Positions 35,660 through 43,597 of a stretch of DNA of 64,000 nt are shown piece by piece. The number at the start of each line of letters is the position of its first letter. The stretch's first letter is position 1. A program made the translations under genes and the position numbers. Where the stretch lies: positions 121,851 through 185,850 of the forward strand of contig JALHMJ010000005.1 of NCBI GenBank assembly GCA_022844105.1. The letters are read 5' to 3'. Below the pieces are notes generated by a model. It had not been told where the DNA came from. It was given only the letters and a program-made list of their open reading frames with translations, and did not search any database. This DNA comes from Hyphomicrobium sp. Its GTDB lineage: Bacteria; Pseudomonadota; Alphaproteobacteria; Rhizobiales; Hyphomicrobiaceae.

Positions 35660-36310
35660 TCACATCGGTGAGGCGAGTACCAGTGTCCAGAATGATTTGA
35701 ATTCCGTTTTAGGATCCTGGATCAGCGCCAAGCCCATTTCGGACGCATCCGCCAGCAACAGGTTCTTGTTGTGCCCCGGACTTGCCTTCCAGCCGCGCAT
35801 GACTTCCTGGAAATCAATCTGGCCGGTACCGACGTTTTCGGCAGCAAGCCGCGCTTTATATCCGGTGCGCTTAACCCGGTCCCACGGATTGGAGCCGTCC
35901 GACCCATAGTGCGAGATGCGGTCCCACTTCGAAAGGTCGCGTGAATGGCCTTTGGCGGCTTCCGCCAGCTCGGCGTTGAGCTTCACCGGCTTCAATTTGT
36001 GATCGCGACGATACTGATTGATGATGTCGCGCGCCTTCTCCGGGTCAAGCGCGGTCGAGGAGTAATCGCGATCGGCCAGCATCCCCTTGGTGGCATTTTC
36101 ATAGCTGCCTTTGGGGGCCTGATCGTTCAAGCGGGCGAGCTGCACCGGCCGATTGACGGACGGTTCGCCTCCCAGACCGACGCTCGGAGTCGGCCGCTTG
36201 GAAACGGCGGACGTCTGATCCTCGGCAAATCCGGACGAGATCGATCCGCTATTGAGACTGCAGGCGGTCAGGCCAATGGCGGCACAAACCGCAACGGCAA
36301 CGCGATACAT
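35660..36310 (-). CDS. CAP-domain lipoprotein
   Basis: A 216-residue protein with a lipoprotein signal peptide: MYRVAVAVCAAIGLTACS has a lipobox LTAC, so Cys-17 is probably lipidated. After a Ser/Pro-rich linker the CAP (SCP/PR-1) domain starts near residue 85: INQYRRDHKLKPVKLNAELA, then AAKGHSRDLSKWDRISHYGS and WKASPGHNKNLLL. The two histidines of the CAP cleft are present. These proteins are secreted or surface-anchored, with unclear activity in bacteria. GGGAG nine bases before ATG 36310 sets the start; the track begins 15 codons earlier. It is convergent with the flippase gene. Confidence 0.9.
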   Translation of the reverse strand: MYRVAVAVCAAIGLTACSLNSGSISSGFAEDQTSAVSKRPTPSVGLGGEPSVNRPVQLARLNDQAPKGSYENATKGMLADRDYSSTALDPEKARDIINQYRRDHKLKPVKLNAELAEAAKGHSRDLSKWDRISHYGSDGSNPWDRVKRTGYKARLAAENVGTGQIDFQEVMRGWKASPGHNKNLLLADASEMGLALIQDPKTEFKSFWTLVLASPM

Positions 36311-36726: not shown

Positions 36727-37863
36727 ATGCCCGCACGTGCCGGCGAGGCGGTCATCGAAACCGCCCGCGACGCCGTTGTCGGACCCGTCGAGACTTTGCT
36801 GCTCGCGCGCATTGCGTGCGAAGGCGGAGCCACGCGCAGTGATCTGGTGCGCGATGCGGGCGTGTTGCTACAGCACAAAATGGCGCCCGCGCAGGTGCGC
36901 ACGACAATTGATAACGCAGTTGCAGCACTCCTTGCAGCCGGACTTGCAGGCGAAACGCGCGGCCGCTTTGCGGCAACGCCGTTGGGCACGCAAGCTGCCG
37001 GCCGGTTCTTGCAAACCACAGTTTGCCCTGCCAATTGGGATCAGGTCCGCGACATCGCTTTGGTGGCCAAAGCGCTGGGCCTCGGCGCCGAGCCCCACTC
37101 CCGTAAGACAGCGCTCGCCAGACCGGAGGGACTGCGCACCGCCATTCTGCAACGGACCTATGGGCTGAAGGGCAAGAAGAACATTCCCGATGCGAAACTG
37201 CGCGCGCAGTTGGCGCTTGTGGCGTTGGAGCGAGCCTTCGGCAACAAGATCAAGGCCGGGTTCTCCAAGGGGTCGGGTCTGCCGTCGAAGGCTGCCCGGA
37301 CCCTGGCCGGTCAGCTCGCCGCATCGCCGCGTGATTTTCCAACCGACGCCAAGCTGATCGCGCAATTGGCAGCCGATGCTGTCGGCGCCGCGCAGGTCGA
37401 TTGCGACGTCGTCCGTCTGGCCATTTTGCGCCGGATGATCACGCAGTTTCTCGATGTAAGCTCACCCGTTCGCCAAGCGCCGGCGGCCAGAAGCCCCAAA
37501 TCCGACGCGCCGGCAGATCTCATCAATTCGGCCGCCAATGACACAAAGCCGGAAAAAGGCCCGCCGCCGCGCCCTGGTCTGGAGCAGTTCTCGTCCGCCG
37601 TTCGGCACGCGGCACAAAAAAGTGCTCAAGGGTGGCCGGCGAAAGCGTTTATCTCTCACGTCTGGGAAACGATTCGCATCGAGAATGAGATCTGGGCGCT
37701 GTCCGAGATCGAGTTCAAGTCGATGCTTGTCGAAGCCAACCGTCGCGGCGCCGTAAGCCTGGTGACCGCCGACTTGAAGAACCGAGATCTCCGCCAGGAC
37801 ATTGAACGGTCGGCAACGCCCGACCGCAACACCGTCTGGCATTACGTCCGCATTGAAGATTGA
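36727..37863 (+). CDS. Putative winged-helix protein, partner of the dual ATPase
   Basis: A 378-residue soluble protein. The first ~90 residues read as a winged-helix fold (LLLARIACEGGATRSDLVRD, then VRTTIDNAVAALLAAGLAGE and a wing-like GRFAATPLG). The middle is helical and positively charged (LKGKKNIPDAKLRAQLALVALE). After a disordered Pro-rich linker at ~260-285, the last ~85 residues look like a second winged helix: KAFISHVWETIRIENEIWAL, EFKSMLVEANRRGAVSLVTA and a closing VWHYVRIED. GGGAGG seven bases before the ATG at 36727 places the start there, six codons after the track start. It ends 40 bases before the large ATPase gene, so the two form an operon. The architecture suggests a DNA-binding or adaptor subunit. 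I do not recognise a named family. Confidence 0.7.
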   Translation: MPARAGEAVIETARDAVVGPVETLLLARIACEGGATRSDLVRDAGVLLQHKMAPAQVRTTIDNAVAALLAAGLAGETRGRFAATPLGTQAAGRFLQTTVCPANWDQVRDIALVAKALGLGAEPHSRKTALARPEGLRTAILQRTYGLKGKKNIPDAKLRAQLALVALERAFGNKIKAGFSKGSGLPSKAARTLAGQLAASPRDFPTDAKLIAQLAADAVGAAQVDCDVVRLAILRRMITQFLDVSSPVRQAPAARSPKSDAPADLINSAANDTKPEKGPPPRPGLEQFSSAVRHAAQKSAQGWPAKAFISHVWETIRIENEIWALSEIEFKSMLVEANRRGAVSLVTADLKNRDLRQDIERSATPDRNTVWHYVRIED

Positions 37864-37903
37864 AGTGCTGCCTTTCTGATTGGCGCATCGAGGCATGGGT
37901 CGC

Positions 37904-40900
37904 ATGGGTTTGATTGCAAAGAGCACGTCGAACGAAGACGCAAAGGATTGGGCAGCCGATGAGCTGGCCCATGCCTTTGAGCATTCGATCACGTGGGAAG
38001 ATGACATCTGGCGTGCCGACCCTGTCGATGTCGGTGAGGTCCATTCCAAGGCCCGGCTGAAGTTTGCCACAACACTACGCTCCGTTACGGCAGGCAAGGG
38101 TGCCGCCAATCAGGCCCGCATTCTGCTGTTCCACGGCCAGTCCGGCGCCGGCAAGACGCATCTTCTGCGCGCTTTGCGCACGTCCTCTCACCGCACCGGC
38201 GAGGCCTATTTCGGCTACGCCCAGATGACGCCCGACATCGCCAGCTATGCCGACTATTTTCTTCGCCGCCTCGTCCATTCATTGGAGAAATCCTATGACC
38301 CCGACACGCCGGGCATCAGCGGACTGACACGGCTCACGACCAAGCTGGTCTCGGATAGCGCGGTCCTGCCGGCAAAAGATCTCGAACATCTGCGCGACGC
38401 GGCACTCGATGAGGACGAACTCGCCCGCCTTGTTCTGCGTCTTGCCGATGACATCGTCGCCGCGCCGAAACTTGCCAACGAAGACCTCGACATCAATATC
38501 GTGCGCGCGCTGCTCTACATGGAGCGTCGCGATCCGCGCATCGACCAGCGCATCCGCCAGTATCTCAATGGCCGCCAACTCACCTCGCTGGCGCATCAAG
38601 CCGTTGCCGCCCTCGATCCTAACACCGGCGAAGACCGCGCCTTCGAGATTATCACCTCGCTCGGCAAGCTGATCTGGACCGTTGAAAAAGCCTCGCTCGT
38701 CTTTGCCATCGACCAAGTCGAGGATTTGCGGTTCTTCGACGACGCTGAAGAACGCTTCCAAAAAGCCGTGCGCGATCTCATCCAAATTGCCAATCGGCTC
38801 AGCAACGCCATCGTCATCATCTCCTGCCTCGACGATTTCTACGGTCAGGTGCGCGGCGCGCTGCCCCAGTCCTATCTCGACCGCATCGAGAAATCGGGTC
38901 CGGTTGCTCTGCTCGAAAGCCGCACGCCGGAAGAAGCGCGCCTCATCATTGCACGGCGCCTGCAGCATGAAGCCGAAGCCAAGGCTGATGGTCTGGCCTA
39001 CCCCGATCCCACCCAATTTTTCGGGCCGCAGTTCTTTGAGGAATTCGGCGGTCTGTCGACACGGCGGCTTCTCGAACATGCGCAGTCGCGTCTTCGCGAA
39101 CAAGTCAACGGCGAACCCGAAGAGCGTGAACAACAATCCGGCGGCTGGGCCTCCACGCTCGCCTCTGTTCTTGGCGGCATTTTCAGTGATGGCGACAACA
39201 CCGGCCAGCGCACCTCGTCGGCGGCGATGGACTATCGCGAGATGTGGGAGCGTTTCCAATCGGCGTCGGAAGCCGAGATCCCATCCGATGACCGTGAATT
39301 GCTGGAGATACTGACCGCGGGCCTGACGCTCGCTAAGGACGAATGGGCCGGTGACGTCGTGCTCGCCACCAACCGCCTTGATCTGGCCGACGATCTGCCC
39401 GCGTTCGATGTCGTCATCCGGCACAAGAAGACGGGACACGCCGCTGAGGCCAGAGTGTTCTTGTGTAATCGCAAGACCCAGGGTGGCGGCCTGAAGCGCC
39501 AGATGGATAAGGTGCTGTCGGCGATGGCCGGCAAAGCCTGTTTCATGCTCCGCGCGTCTGACTTCCCGCCCAACGGCAAGAATCAAACCGCGCAGGCCAT
39601 GCGCAAGTTTCGCGAAAGCGGCGGCCGCCAGATCATCGTGCCAATCCCTGAGTGGGAGCGCATCATGACGGTGCGCGAGTTCCACGCCCATTATCGCCAG
39701 GACCCTGGCTTCACGGCCTGGTTCGAGGACGCGCGCCTTCTGTCGAACATCATGGTCGTAATCCAGTTGCTGCGCCTCGACCTCCTCGGTCGCGGCTTGC
39801 CGCGCACGGCCAAGCCCGATGACACGAAAGCCGTTGCTGCACCCGCACCGGCTGCTGAAACCCCAGGTGAGGCCGCCGCGCTCACGCCCGGCGGATGGAC
39901 GACGTCGTGGACCGACAGTGACAACGAACAGCTGCCGGCCAACGACGACGAACTTCCGCTCTCTGTCATCCTCGATGAAAACGGCAGCACCGGCTCGATC
40001 CTCGCGGGCCGGGAAAGTGGCGCACGCTCAAAGCCCATCACGCTCAACAAAGACGTGCTGAAGCGTCATGCCGCCGTTCTGGGCGGTTCCGGTTCCGGCA
40101 AAACGACGCTCGCACTCTGCCTCATCGAGCAATTACTGCTGCAAGGCATTCCGGCCGTGCTGCTCGACCGCAAAGGCGACCTGTGCTCCTACGCCAACCC
40201 GGATGTCTGGCGCGCCAACGACCATGAATTTACCGACCGTCGTGGCGACCGCGAGAAGCTTGCCGACGCCATCGACGTTGCGGTCTATACGCCCGGCCGC
40301 GCCTCCGGCCGTCCGATCTCGATCACGCTGCTGCCCAACGGCATCAACGAACTGCCCGAACACGAACAGCAATTGCTGGCCAATCTTTCGTCGGCCGCGC
40401 TGGGCGAAATGTTGCATTTGAAAAATTCTGCGACGCATCAAAAGCAGTCGGGCACGCTGTCGGTCGCCCTGCGCATTCTCGGATCGCGCTACAGCCGCGA
40501 AGTCACGCTGGCCGATCTCATCGCGCTGCTCGAAGACGAAGACCCCGAACTGACCGATCTGACGCAGCGCATGGACCCGTCGGGCAAGATTCGCCGCGAT
40601 CTCGTGGCCCAGCTCGACAGCTTGCGCCACCGCAACTCCGCCCTTTTCGAAGGCGGCGGCGAGAGCCTGCGCATGGAAAGCCTGCTCGGTATCGGCCCGT
40701 TCGCGCGCGAAGGCCGCACGCGGTTGTCGATCATCTACACGGGCTTCCTCGGCGACAATGAAAACATTCTGTTCTGGGTTGCGCAGTTTCTGTCAGAGGC
40801 CCTACGCTTCTGCCAGCGCAATCCGAACGATGAATTGCAGGCCGTCGTCATGTTCGACGAGGCCGACCTCTATATTCCGGCCAACGCCAAGCCCGCGACC

Positions 40901-41281
40901 GCCGAACCGTTGCAGAGCCTTTTGAAACGCGCCCGCTCGGCCGGTCTCGGCCTGATGCTCGCCACGCAATCGCCGGGCGATCTCGACTATAAGAGCCGCG
41001 ACCAGATCACGAGCTGGTTCATCGGGCGTGTGCGCGAGGATACCGCGCTGCGCAAGCTGAAGGCCGCCTTCCAAAGCGAAAGCGGTCTCGACCCTGCAGC
41101 CGTTCTGCCGCATCAGACCGTCGGTGAATTCCACCTCGTGCAGGAAGGTCATGTGCGCTCGATGAAGGCGCAGCGGTCACTGATCGAAGCCGAACAGGTG
41201 CCCTTCGATCGGATCGAGCAACTGGCCCACGAGACCAAAGGACAGGACGAAAAGCAGCTGAAGCTTTTTGACGTGCGGTGA
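37904..41281 (+). CDS. Large protein with two P-loop ATPase modules, the second HerA/DUF87-like
   Basis: A 1125-residue cytoplasmic protein. Module 1 (residues ~40-420) is an AAA-type ATPase with Walker A GQSGAGKTH at ~80-88, Walker B LVFAIDQVED at ~266 and a sensor-like VIISCLDDF. A middle region (~430-660) with a mixed alpha/beta stretch (VVIRHKKTGHAAEARVFLC) follows, then a Pro/Ala linker. Module 2 (~690-1125) is HerA/VirB4/FtsK-like: Walker A GGSGSGKTTLA at ~727, DRKGDLCSYANPDVW, Walker B AVVMFDEADLYIPA at ~981 and LATQSPGDLDYK at ~1021. This suggests a hexameric DNA or protein translocase gated by the first ATPase. ATG 37904 is used because GAGG lies ten bases upstream; TTG 37880 and ATG 37895 are alternatives. 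No nuclease, methylase or helicase is adjacent. Function unknown. Confidence 0.85.
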   Translation: MGLIAKSTSNEDAKDWAADELAHAFEHSITWEDDIWRADPVDVGEVHSKARLKFATTLRSVTAGKGAANQARILLFHGQSGAGKTHLLRALRTSSHRTGEAYFGYAQMTPDIASYADYFLRRLVHSLEKSYDPDTPGISGLTRLTTKLVSDSAVLPAKDLEHLRDAALDEDELARLVLRLADDIVAAPKLANEDLDINIVRALLYMERRDPRIDQRIRQYLNGRQLTSLAHQAVAALDPNTGEDRAFEIITSLGKLIWTVEKASLVFAIDQVEDLRFFDDAEERFQKAVRDLIQIANRLSNAIVIISCLDDFYGQVRGALPQSYLDRIEKSGPVALLESRTPEEARLIIARRLQHEAEAKADGLAYPDPTQFFGPQFFEEFGGLSTRRLLEHAQSRLREQVNGEPEEREQQSGGWASTLASVLGGIFSDGDNTGQRTSSAAMDYREMWERFQSASEAEIPSDDRELLEILTAGLTLAKDEWAGDVVLATNRLDLADDLPAFDVVIRHKKTGHAAEARVFLCNRKTQGGGLKRQMDKVLSAMAGKACFMLRASDFPPNGKNQTAQAMRKFRESGGRQIIVPIPEWERIMTVREFHAHYRQDPGFTAWFEDARLLSNIMVVIQLLRLDLLGRGLPRTAKPDDTKAVAAPAPAAETPGEAAALTPGGWTTSWTDSDNEQLPANDDELPLSVILDENGSTGSILAGRESGARSKPITLNKDVLKRHAAVLGGSGSGKTTLALCLIEQLLLQGIPAVLLDRKGDLCSYANPDVWRANDHEFTDRRGDREKLADAIDVAVYTPGRASGRPISITLLPNGINELPEHEQQLLANLSSAALGEMLHLKNSATHQKQSGTLSVALRILGSRYSREVTLADLIALLEDEDPELTDLTQRMDPSGKIRRDLVAQLDSLRHRNSALFEGGGESLRMESLLGIGPFAREGRTRLSIIYTGFLGDNENILFWVAQFLSEALRFCQRNPNDELQAVVMFDEADLYIPANAKPATAEPLQSLLKRARSAGLGLMLATQSPGDLDYKSRDQITSWFIGRVREDTALRKLKAAFQSESGLDPAAVLPHQTVGEFHLVQEGHVRSMKAQRSLIEAEQVPFDRIEQLAHETKGQDEKQLKLFDVR

Positions 41282-42060
41282 TTTCAGCCGCTTTGACACC
41301 TAATTGAGCGACGTTTTCTGTAGGGATTTCAAAAGGTTTGAGCTTAAACAGCTATATTTTGTGCAATGCGGCATCACGTTCGCCATTGCGAGATCACATT
41401 GTGACGGAAATCCAATAGCCTCATGCACGGGACATTTTCCCGTGTAAAGATTTCGTGATCTGCAGTGTGACAGGGCGTGGGCACAACGCAGATAGATGTC
41501 CCGAGGCGCTGAGGGGAATAGCGTCGAAGGACACGTATCCGGCCGAGGACCGGAATTAGTGTGCGGGGTTGTGTGTAATGGCAGGTAAATCGTTTTTGAT
41601 GTTGGTGCTGGCGTCGATGCTCGGCCCGGCTGTCGGCGTTGGTCTCTTCGTTCTTCTGAACGCTTTTTAAGACCGCCGATAATGGTTGTGGAGCGCGCTC
41701 GAGGCGCTGCGCGAAATACTTCGCGTAAATTCATGTCTTACGGCAATCGTTGGCGCGCGCGCAAAACGAATTGAGGCCCGCCCGCAATCCGGCCGGCAGC
41801 GGGGGCTTCCGGTTCAGCGCAGGCGGGCCTCGCATCGGGGAGCGGCCAGGAGGGCGGTTAGGCCAACCCCCATCCAGGTGTCACCCCAGCCAGAGCCCGT
41901 GCGGGAAAGCCCTGGCTGGAATGAGCACCAAGTCTCCTGTTCAACAGTCCGACGGTTTTGATCCTTTCGGGGCGGTCCGGATGTTTTACCGGCGGTCTGT
42001 CTCAGGGAGCAGTGAACTGAATAAGAACGGTGTGATGCGCAGGATATTCCAGCGCGTTCA
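41282..42060. other. Long intergenic region with hairpins, no established RNA gene
   Basis: 779 bases between the dual ATPase and the anti-sigma gene. It contains the small ORF at 41578 and an ACGGG/CCCGT hairpin near 41427. A GC-rich stretch holds GAGGCCCGCC (about 41773) pairing with GGCGGGCCTC (about 41822), and CCAGCCAG (41889) pairing with CTGGCTGG (41912). I tested it by eye against RNase P RNA, tmRNA, 6S and cobalamin riboswitch landmarks and found no match. The plus-strand ORF from 41750 is mostly antisense to the anti-sigma gene. Confidence 0.5.
41578..41670 (+). CDS. Possible 30-residue single-helix membrane peptide
   Basis: Too short for the ORF track. ATG at 41578 gives MAGKSFLMLVLASMLGPAVG and then VGLFVLLNAF before TAA. 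It has a lysine near the start and one hydrophobic helix of about 22 residues, the usual layout of small bacterial membrane proteins. GCGGGGTT lies about ten bases upstream. Coding is not proven; codon choice is compatible with the neighbours. Confidence 0.4.
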   Translation: MAGKSFLMLVLASMLGPAVGVGLFVLLNAF

Positions 42061-42861
42061 TCAATTTCCTGCGCCGCCTTCAACTGCAGGCGCAGCGGCC
42101 CAACCCTTCTCAATCAGGAACTCTTCTTCCACCGGCGTCAGTTCGCTCCGTCCGGGAAGCGCCTTCACGACGCTCCCGACCACGCCATCGAGCGCATCGC
42201 TTTCGCCTTGGCTGGCATTGCGCGTCGTGGCGCTCTGGTCGGCGCCCCCCGTCAACACGCGGATCCTCCAATCACCGTCGTTCTCGCGGCACGCAAGTCC
42301 CTGCGGACCCTTATTTCGGCCGACAATTTCGTACTGCCGGCAAATGCGGCCGTCACTATCGCGCACCGACAGGAGCGGACGGATATCGCCCTCCTTGTCG
42401 AGCTCCCTGGTATTTGAGGGAATGGTGTCGAGCGCAACCTGCAGCCGGCCGGCGGCGACAAACCCGTCGCGATCGGCGCGCACGAGCGTGTCATCTGCAG
42501 GGGGTGTTGCGAGCAGTGATGCTCCAACGCCCACGCCGATCAGCAATGTGGCCGCATAGCCAGCGGCCGGCAGGAGACTAAAACCTCCCGGAAAAAACCG
42601 GTCCATCAATCCCTGACGCGCGACGGGCTTTTTTACATTCGACGTCGTGCCACGAATGGTGTCGAGCAGCCGGTCGGGGATGGGCGCCGCAAGCACCGCA
42701 TCGAATGCGGTCAGCTGGCCCGGCGCCGTCGCAAGAAACGGCTGTAACCGGTCCCGTAACGCCGGATCGACGGCGAGAAGGCTCTCCAGCCAGGCCTTTT
42801 CCTCGGCCGAAACCCGGCCGTCGGCGTAGCCCATAATGATTTCGTCAGGAACGTGTACCAA
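42061..42861 (-). CDS. Anti-sigma factor, membrane-anchored
   Basis: A 266-residue protein with an N-terminal cytoplasmic helical domain (VPDEIIMGYADGRVSAEEKA, typical of anti-sigma factors that start with a short helical bundle), one membrane segment near residue 100-120 (LLPAAGYAATLLIGVGVGASL) and a periplasmic part with the segment RICRQYEIVGRNKGPQGLAC. The start proposed is TTG 42861, with AGGAG seven bases upstream. It overlaps the end of the sigma gene by 17 bases, which suggests translational coupling; ATG 42900 is an alternative. Adjacent sigma and anti-sigma genes are the normal arrangement for ECF systems. The inducing signal is unknown. Confidence 0.8.
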   Translation of the reverse strand: MVHVPDEIIMGYADGRVSAEEKAWLESLLAVDPALRDRLQPFLATAPGQLTAFDAVLAAPIPDRLLDTIRGTTSNVKKPVARQGLMDRFFPGGFSLLPAAGYAATLLIGVGVGASLLATPPADDTLVRADRDGFVAAGRLQVALDTIPSNTRELDKEGDIRPLLSVRDSDGRICRQYEIVGRNKGPQGLACRENDGDWRIRVLTGGADQSATTRNASQGESDALDGVVGSVVKALPGRSELTPVEEEFLIEKGWAAAPAVEGGAGN

Positions 42862-43387
42862 GGAGGCGCTCCTGTTGCTGAGGATTGGCGATGCCGGCAT
42901 CGGCAGAGATATGCTGGAAAAGGGCCTGACGGGCCCGTGACAGGCGGCTCATGACGGTCCCGATCGGCACGTTCAGGATTGATGCGGCGTCTTTGTAGGA
43001 AAGTCCGTCGACGCAGACCATGGTGACGAGCACCTGTTGCTCCGGCGGCAGTTTATCCATGCCTTCGCTGACGGCGGCCAGCGTGAGCCTGGTTTCGGTT
43101 ACGGTTCGACCGTCTTCGCCAGCAAGACCCACCGCCTCGTCAATGTCGAGCACGGGACCGCGGACCTTTTCGGACCGCTTGCGATCAAGCCAGAGATTTT
43201 GCGCGATCCGGTACATCCAACTCTCGAGCTTCGTTCCAGGCTCCCACTGATCCAGACGCGAGAGCGCACGCTCGCACGTGTCCTGGACGAGATCGTCGGC
43301 CTGATCCATGTTTCTCGTGAGCGCGAATGCGAACCTGCGCAAACGCGGCAGGAACTCGATCATTCGGGCCCTTACATCTTCCGTCAC
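42845..43387 (-). CDS. ECF-type RNA polymerase sigma factor
   Basis: A 180-residue ECF sigma factor. Region 2 is RMIEFLPRLRRFAFALTRNMDQADDLVQDTCERAL, followed by the WEPGTKLESWMYRIAQNLWLDRKR segment. Region 4 is KLPPEQQVLVTMVCVDGLSYKDAASILNVPIGTVMSRLSRAR. The start is a GTG at 43387 with GAGAGG seven bases upstream; the 509-codon track ORF is an extension antisense to the penicillin-binding protein gene. It is co-transcribed with the anti-sigma factor and divergent from the PBP gene at 43598, which makes the PBP a candidate regulon member. Confidence 0.9.
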   Translation of the reverse strand: MTEDVRARMIEFLPRLRRFAFALTRNMDQADDLVQDTCERALSRLDQWEPGTKLESWMYRIAQNLWLDRKRSEKVRGPVLDIDEAVGLAGEDGRTVTETRLTLAAVSEGMDKLPPEQQVLVTMVCVDGLSYKDAASILNVPIGTVMSRLSRARQALFQHISADAGIANPQQQERLLGTRS

Positions 43388-43597
43388 GGACTGCCCTCTC
43401 CGCGGCGCTTCGCAATAAGAACGAGGTGGTTGCCCGGATATTCCATGCCTTTCCCAGCTGTGGGAAGGCGCCATTCGGGCGCGATGCCGACACGGCCGAG
43501 CCGCAAACGGGCCGAGGCGGTGCCACAAACCACGTCTAGGTTCGCCTGAGGCCAAGCCCCGGGCCGCGGGCAGTGCGGGCCGCATTCGGCTAGGTGT

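Follow-up and report, generated by a model that had tools for sequence, protein, structure and literature searches.

A pair of adjacent genes, A and B, in a 64,000-nucleotide stretch of Hyphomicrobium DNA (hereafter, the window) is best explained, with a probability that we put at about 0.5, as encoding an ATP-driven double-stranded DNA translocase, one that either arose by domestication of mobile Orc/Cdc6-HerA capture systems or has a common ancestor with them, and as being fixed today among the chromosomal housekeeping genes of a Hyphomicrobiales clade. A fixed, nuclease-free, motor-intact DNA translocase is most simply read as serving the cell's own chromosome.

Organization of the gene pair

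Genes A and B lie on the same (+) strand, 31 nt apart, in agreement with the two tightly spaced open reading frames reported by the first-pass annotation. The 416-base region that it placed ahead of the pair fits the sequence if the divergent CAP-domain gene begins at an internal ATG near 36310. Its description of the pair as standing alone between unrelated genes holds at the window locus, except that a conserved ORF for a 30-aa microprotein comes after B. Scans for a sigma-70 promoter upstream of A and for Rfam families downstream of B gave no match. The features of the pair, in window coordinates, are:

36727-37863, + strand: gene A, multi-winged-helix partner, 378 aa (ORF from ATG 36709; adjoins B in 66/67 family genomes)
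36784-37011, + strand: A, N-terminal winged-helix-like region, residues ~20-95 (AlphaFold2, pLDDT about 96)
37579-37860, + strand: A, C-terminal winged-helix-like domain, residues ~285-378, common to the divergent pairs
37895-41281, + strand: gene B, AAA/endonuclease-like/HerA protein, 1128 aa (ORF from TTG 37880, an alternative start)
38102-39094, + strand: B, Orc/Cdc6- and BrxD-like AAA module, residues ~70-400 (Pfam AAA_22/AAA_16; BrxD profile)
38132-38161, + strand: AAA Walker A, HGQSGAGKTH (G81, G84, G86, K87, T88 and H89 invariant)
38711-38716, + strand: AAA Walker B as Asp-Gln (D273 Q274), not Asp-Glu; invariant in 34/34 aligned relatives
39233-39787, + strand: B, restriction-endonuclease-like fold, probably non-catalytic, residues ~447-631 (E483, D505, and R520 where lysine is usual)
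39992-41224, + strand: B, HerA/FtsK-type translocase motor, residues ~700-1110 (Pfam HerA_C, DUF87)
40082-40108, + strand: HerA Walker A, GGSGSGKTT (G733, S734, G735, K736 and T737 invariant)
40856-40861, + strand: HerA Walker B, Asp-Glu (D988 E989), invariant
41578-41670, + strand: candidate third member, a 30-aa predicted transmembrane microprotein, MAGKSFLMLVLASMLGPAVGVGLFVLLNAF (consensus roughly MVAKSFLMLVLATLLGPAVGVGLFVLLNTF), recognized by coding pattern and position

Protein B joins two ATPase modules and an endonuclease-like fold

The AAA and HerA/FtsK-like modules assigned earlier to the large protein are confirmed by Pfam, which matches B with AAA_22 (6.6e-12), AAA_16 (9.9e-9), HerA_C and DUF87 (3.4e-11 each), and all the motifs quoted for them are present. 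In addition, a BrxD profile matches the AAA part in 22 of 34 relatives, and among PADLOC profiles mad8 scores best on B, in its HerA part (7.3e-22). No NCBIfam model reached its own cut-off on the pair, and a PDB sequence search with the AAA and middle parts of B gave nothing convincing. We dropped family assignment from Pfam, NCBIfam or PADLOC matches taken alone, since none of them offers a full-length family.

As far as can be read from the sequence, the HerA motifs of B are intact. The Walker B motif of the AAA module is Asp-Gln, also in the divergent types included in the alignment of 34 relatives, which suggests that ATP hydrolysis by this module is altered.

Between the two ATPase modules lies a third, endonuclease-like module (residues ~447-631), which the earlier domain reading of B had missed. 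Modelled as residues 436-665 from 78 sequences (pLDDT 85.7), it shows the order helix-strand-strand-strand-helix-strand-helix-strand. In a fold search of the PDB, MspJI is the best match (E 2.2e-3, probability 0.93-0.99) and Avs3 and AspBHI are also among the best; RNase H and other folds are present as well, and no match passes E = 0.001. The element order and the matches to MspJI, Avs3 and AspBHI suggest a restriction-endonuclease-like fold for the module. E483 and D505 are conserved in 71 of 71 close relatives, and the third motif has arginine at position 520, not lysine, in all 71; the module is probably non-catalytic. In the segment behind this fold, the expected site of the C-terminal winged helix of an Orc part, the model shows helices only.

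Protein A is a fast-evolving, predicted winged-helix partner

AlphaFold2 (pLDDT 87) places one winged-helix-like region at residues 20-95 of A and another at 285-378, with helices between them. The earlier claim that A has a winged helix at each end is thus supported by the model, but not by sequence or structure databases: A has no significant match in Pfam or the PDB, and a PDB sequence search gave nothing convincing. The fold matches are weak, led by MukF and JetA-type kleisin subunits (E 0.009-0.16, not significant) and followed by many winged-helix regulators; in contrast to those kleisin-type subunits, the pair has no SMC-like partner. Profile comparisons with one DptG sequence, for A, and with one DptF sequence detected no relation. 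A changes much faster than B (48-77% versus 77-93% identity), and its C-terminal region is the portion still recognizable in the most divergent pairs.

A conserved microprotein ORF follows the pair

The microprotein ORF, which was too short for the ORF list, lies ~300 nt after B and encodes one hydrophobic stretch. Its variability at codon positions 1, 2 and 3 is 0.84, 0.22 and 1.51 bits, a pattern for which we regard the ORF as coding, and its median dN/dS is 0.13. Of 67 family genomes, 50 have a match directly after B with E under 1e-5 (weakest 5.7e-6, in G102) and four more have weak matches; in some genera the best match sits elsewhere. Among 32 genomes outside the family nothing rises beyond chance level, and the microprotein is apparently restricted to the family. 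It is a possible third member of the pair, the link being positional.

Comparison with known systems

The first-pass annotation did not recognize the composition of the pair, yet the domain set has already been described. Mobile neighbourhoods with an Orc/CDC6 AAA, an inactive endonuclease fold, an active endonuclease, HerA/FtsK and winged helices have been reported, a subset of which adds a fast-evolving multi-winged-helix gene, and a counter-invader role has been predicted for them under the name 'HerA-FtsK capture' (PMC10853773). The window pair shares with this class the Orc/Cdc6-type AAA, the (here probably) inactive endonuclease fold, the HerA/FtsK motor and the separate, fast-evolving multi-winged-helix partner. 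It differs in that AAA, endonuclease-like and HerA modules are fused as one chain, in lacking an active endonuclease and a mobile neighbourhood, and in being a core pair of one clade. The winged-helix partner of the published subset has 2-4 winged helices and is related to DndG/SspB; A shows two winged-helix regions in its model and no detectable relation to one DptG sequence. Since active endonuclease and mobility are both absent, we class the pair as a variant of Orc/CDC6-HerA capture systems and refrain from naming it a defence system.

Other systems share single parts with the pair. DndFGH and DptFGH likewise combine a HerA motor with a winged-helix partner, and the HerA of a Rhodomicrobium-type pair is 39% identical to a DptH-position protein; however, they have three genes rather than two, and the window-type HerA is only ~19% identical to that protein. 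The locus has no three-gene DndF-DndG-DndH operon, and the pair has no DptF or DptG match. BrxD of BREX type 2 has an Orc/Cdc6-like AAA module but is a standalone ATPase, classed as Orc-Cdc6 (PMC12839542), whereas the AAA module of B is fused; no BREX gene (PglX, PglZ, BrxC) is among the ten scanned neighbours. The mad8 profile of MADS, the best PADLOC profile on the HerA part of B, is 314 aa long, and no further mad genes occur in the scanned neighbourhood. FtsK/SpoIIIE belong to the same HerA/FtsK superfamily of DNA-translocating ATPases, but HerA models fit B better (3.4e-11 versus 3.1e-3), and no N- or C-terminal (gamma) domain of FtsK is among the 25 Pfam matches listed. Unlike HerA-nuclease and HerA-SIR2 systems, B has no nuclease or SIR2 partner beside it.

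Distribution and inheritance

Of the 103 genomes in the window's family, 102 have B, among them all 76 near-complete ones; two of the 102 matches, both in fragmented assemblies (G012 and G089), are weak and HerA-like only. A was found, adjoining B, in 66 of the 67 family genomes searched. Matching public contigs are mostly titled Hyphomicrobium, Filomicrobium or Hyphomicrobiaceae MAGs. Conservation of the pair across the whole family is far above chance, and the pair, near-universal and syntenic, is not mobile. Between close relatives dN/dS is 0.04-0.06 for B and 0.15 for A, rough values with synonymous sites near saturation, by which the pair is under strong purifying selection.

Upstream of the pair, 47 of 56 loci have the divergent CAP gene; downstream, 30 of 56 have a transglycosylase gene. 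The locus in family f30 has the identical set of upstream neighbours. None of ten neighbouring proteins matches a PADLOC defence profile, and the neighbours are ordinary chromosomal genes. No active nuclease was found in A, B or the scanned neighbours, and no repair genes were found at the window locus. On the minus strand, at 42061-43390, lie genes for an ECF-type sigma factor and a probable anti-sigma factor, the latter beside the pair in close relatives only.

When 249 genomes from the order were searched with a profile built on the AAA and middle parts, matches were confined to families f1, f2, f16, f23, f27, f29, f30, f36 and f43, apart from two sporadic copies of another type, of which one is a second copy in G128 and the other lies in an f39 genome. 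Among 318 genomes of the class the window alone matched, with none in the other 317. In 299 genomes of the phylum, the window aside, the matches were a single carrier from the same order, the f39 copy and a partial match, the HerA-less protein of L237 described below. Weak matches elsewhere cover only HerA (~residues 700-1100, 25-30% identity) and are other HerA-like proteins. Viral contigs yielded 171 pattern matches and no relative of the pair; plasmids yielded four partial matches to B.

In an RpoB tree, a single-gene tree of modest support, the 23 carriers are all placed together (SH-aLRT 89), in a group within which five f28 genomes are nested (support 95). We take f28 to be the Methyloceanibacter family, one member presumably being Methyloceanibacter caenitepidi Gela4. 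In its 30 genomes there is no match in 29, and the match in the remaining one is of a different, mobile-like type.

Divergent relatives

Family f27, which we take to be Rhodomicrobiaceae (G224 presumably being Rhodomicrobium vannielii ATCC 17100), carries in 6 of 6 sampled genomes a second, very divergent pair of the same layout, whose B is ~20-22% identical to the window B in both halves. In this type the HerA is most similar (39%) to the DptH-position protein mentioned above, which a Priestia plasmid encodes next to dptF and dptG. The AAA part clusters with that of a pair carried by a conjugative plasmid of Xanthobacter. This last pair (L136 7736-10191, Xanthobacter autotrophicus Py2 plasmid pXAUT01) is of the divergent type, and its B stops after the AAA part beside an IS3-type element. 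In one Rhodomicrobium-family genome (L123 7023-17977) the divergent pair lies near the gene for the main sigma factor and, by sequence reading, a primase gene.

A third, sporadic type (L121, L128 and L243) has a HerA nearer to the window type (27-31% for L121 and L128). In the Rhodomicrobium-family genome of L121 (7745-15117) it is a second B-like protein, next to which lie a gene with a DUF559 endonuclease-like domain and, farther out, an NYN-like gene; this is likely a mobile defence-type relative. Elsewhere in the phylum (L237 6633-9259), a 608-aa protein has AAA and endonuclease-like parts without HerA, beside a 267-aa partner.

Discussion

The first-pass annotation proposed a defence, DNA-segregation or repair machine, a list that includes the likely answer, and our results move the balance from a defence cassette toward a resident chromosomal function because of family-wide conservation, vertical inheritance and ordinary context. 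These were also what it had named as speaking against its defence cassette, and for the window's family they largely hold. We therefore reject the defence island as the default reading, given the near-universal presence and ordinary neighbours.

As a housekeeping translocase, the pair would work as follows. The winged helices of A would recognize or grip DNA; the AAA module of B would bind ATP and act as loader or switch, possibly a slow or non-hydrolysing one because its Walker B motif is Asp-Gln; the endonuclease-like module would hold DNA without cutting it; and the HerA motors would form a ring and pump the duplex. Ring assembly, DNA pumping, a complex of A with B and a chromosomal role, be it segregation, transport or maintenance, are what we infer from the domains and the distribution.

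Near-universal presence is no proof of housekeeping, since defence systems, too, may reach fixation within a clade, and some related copies do look mobile, such as the IS-broken pair on a conjugative plasmid and the copy with a DUF559 nuclease neighbour. The pair could accordingly be a resident counter-invader that captures plasmid or phage DNA by recognizing it with winged helices and pumping it with HerA, its fixation in this clade being incidental; we consider this possible though doubtful. Invader sensors often evolve fast, as A does relative to B; plasmid-borne and nuclease-linked relatives are known; the HerA and AAA parts resemble the defence proteins mad8, BrxD and DptH; and the domain set matches the published class (PMC10853773). 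That class, however, is described with an active nuclease, and none is fused or adjacent here, while near-100% presence, a stable locus and the lack of defence neighbours also argue against such a role. We give even less credence to a DNA-repair or recombination machine with HerA-type end processing, an improbable reading to which the HerA motor of B and the proximity of one Rhodomicrobium-family divergent pair to main sigma factor and primase genes (a sequence reading) would be congenial; neither a NurA-like or other active nuclease partner nor repair genes at the locus accompany the pair.

A special case of the housekeeping translocase is that the pair is the motor, or part of the motor, that carries chromosomal DNA via the hypha into the bud. 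The pair occurs in the hypha-forming Hyphomicrobium and in Filomicrobium, and its divergent second type in 6 of 6 genomes of the presumed Rhodomicrobiaceae, while neither type is found in the 30 genomes of the presumed Methyloceanibacter family. Cultured Methyloceanibacter is scored without hyphae and Hyphomicrobium with hyphae (PMC7996495, Table 1). This contrast, however, comes down to one or at most two evolutionary events, most carrier families have no cultured members, several taxon identities are presumptive, and the pair also occurs in a family f30 MAG that is titled Methyloligella. Moreover, the pair is absent from every genome sampled outside the order, which means that stalk-budding lineages elsewhere must manage without it and that stalk-budding as such does not need it. 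We consider such a motor unlikely on present evidence. A role in hyphal chromosome transport is weakly supported but attractive, and worth testing because hypha-forming genera belong to the clade and Methyloceanibacter to the family free of both types.

A still more speculative, and quite unlikely, scenario is that two very divergent versions of a mobile anti-invader capture machine were domesticated as the hyphal chromosome motor of Hyphomicrobiaceae and Rhodomicrobiaceae, and that the machine was lost in the related hypha-free family; the 30-aa microprotein may then anchor the motor in Hyphomicrobiaceae. If the housekeeping reading is true, a defence-type DNA translocase would have been turned into a fixed housekeeping machine, and the pair would be a single-locus candidate for how hypha-budding bacteria draw their chromosome through a narrow tube.
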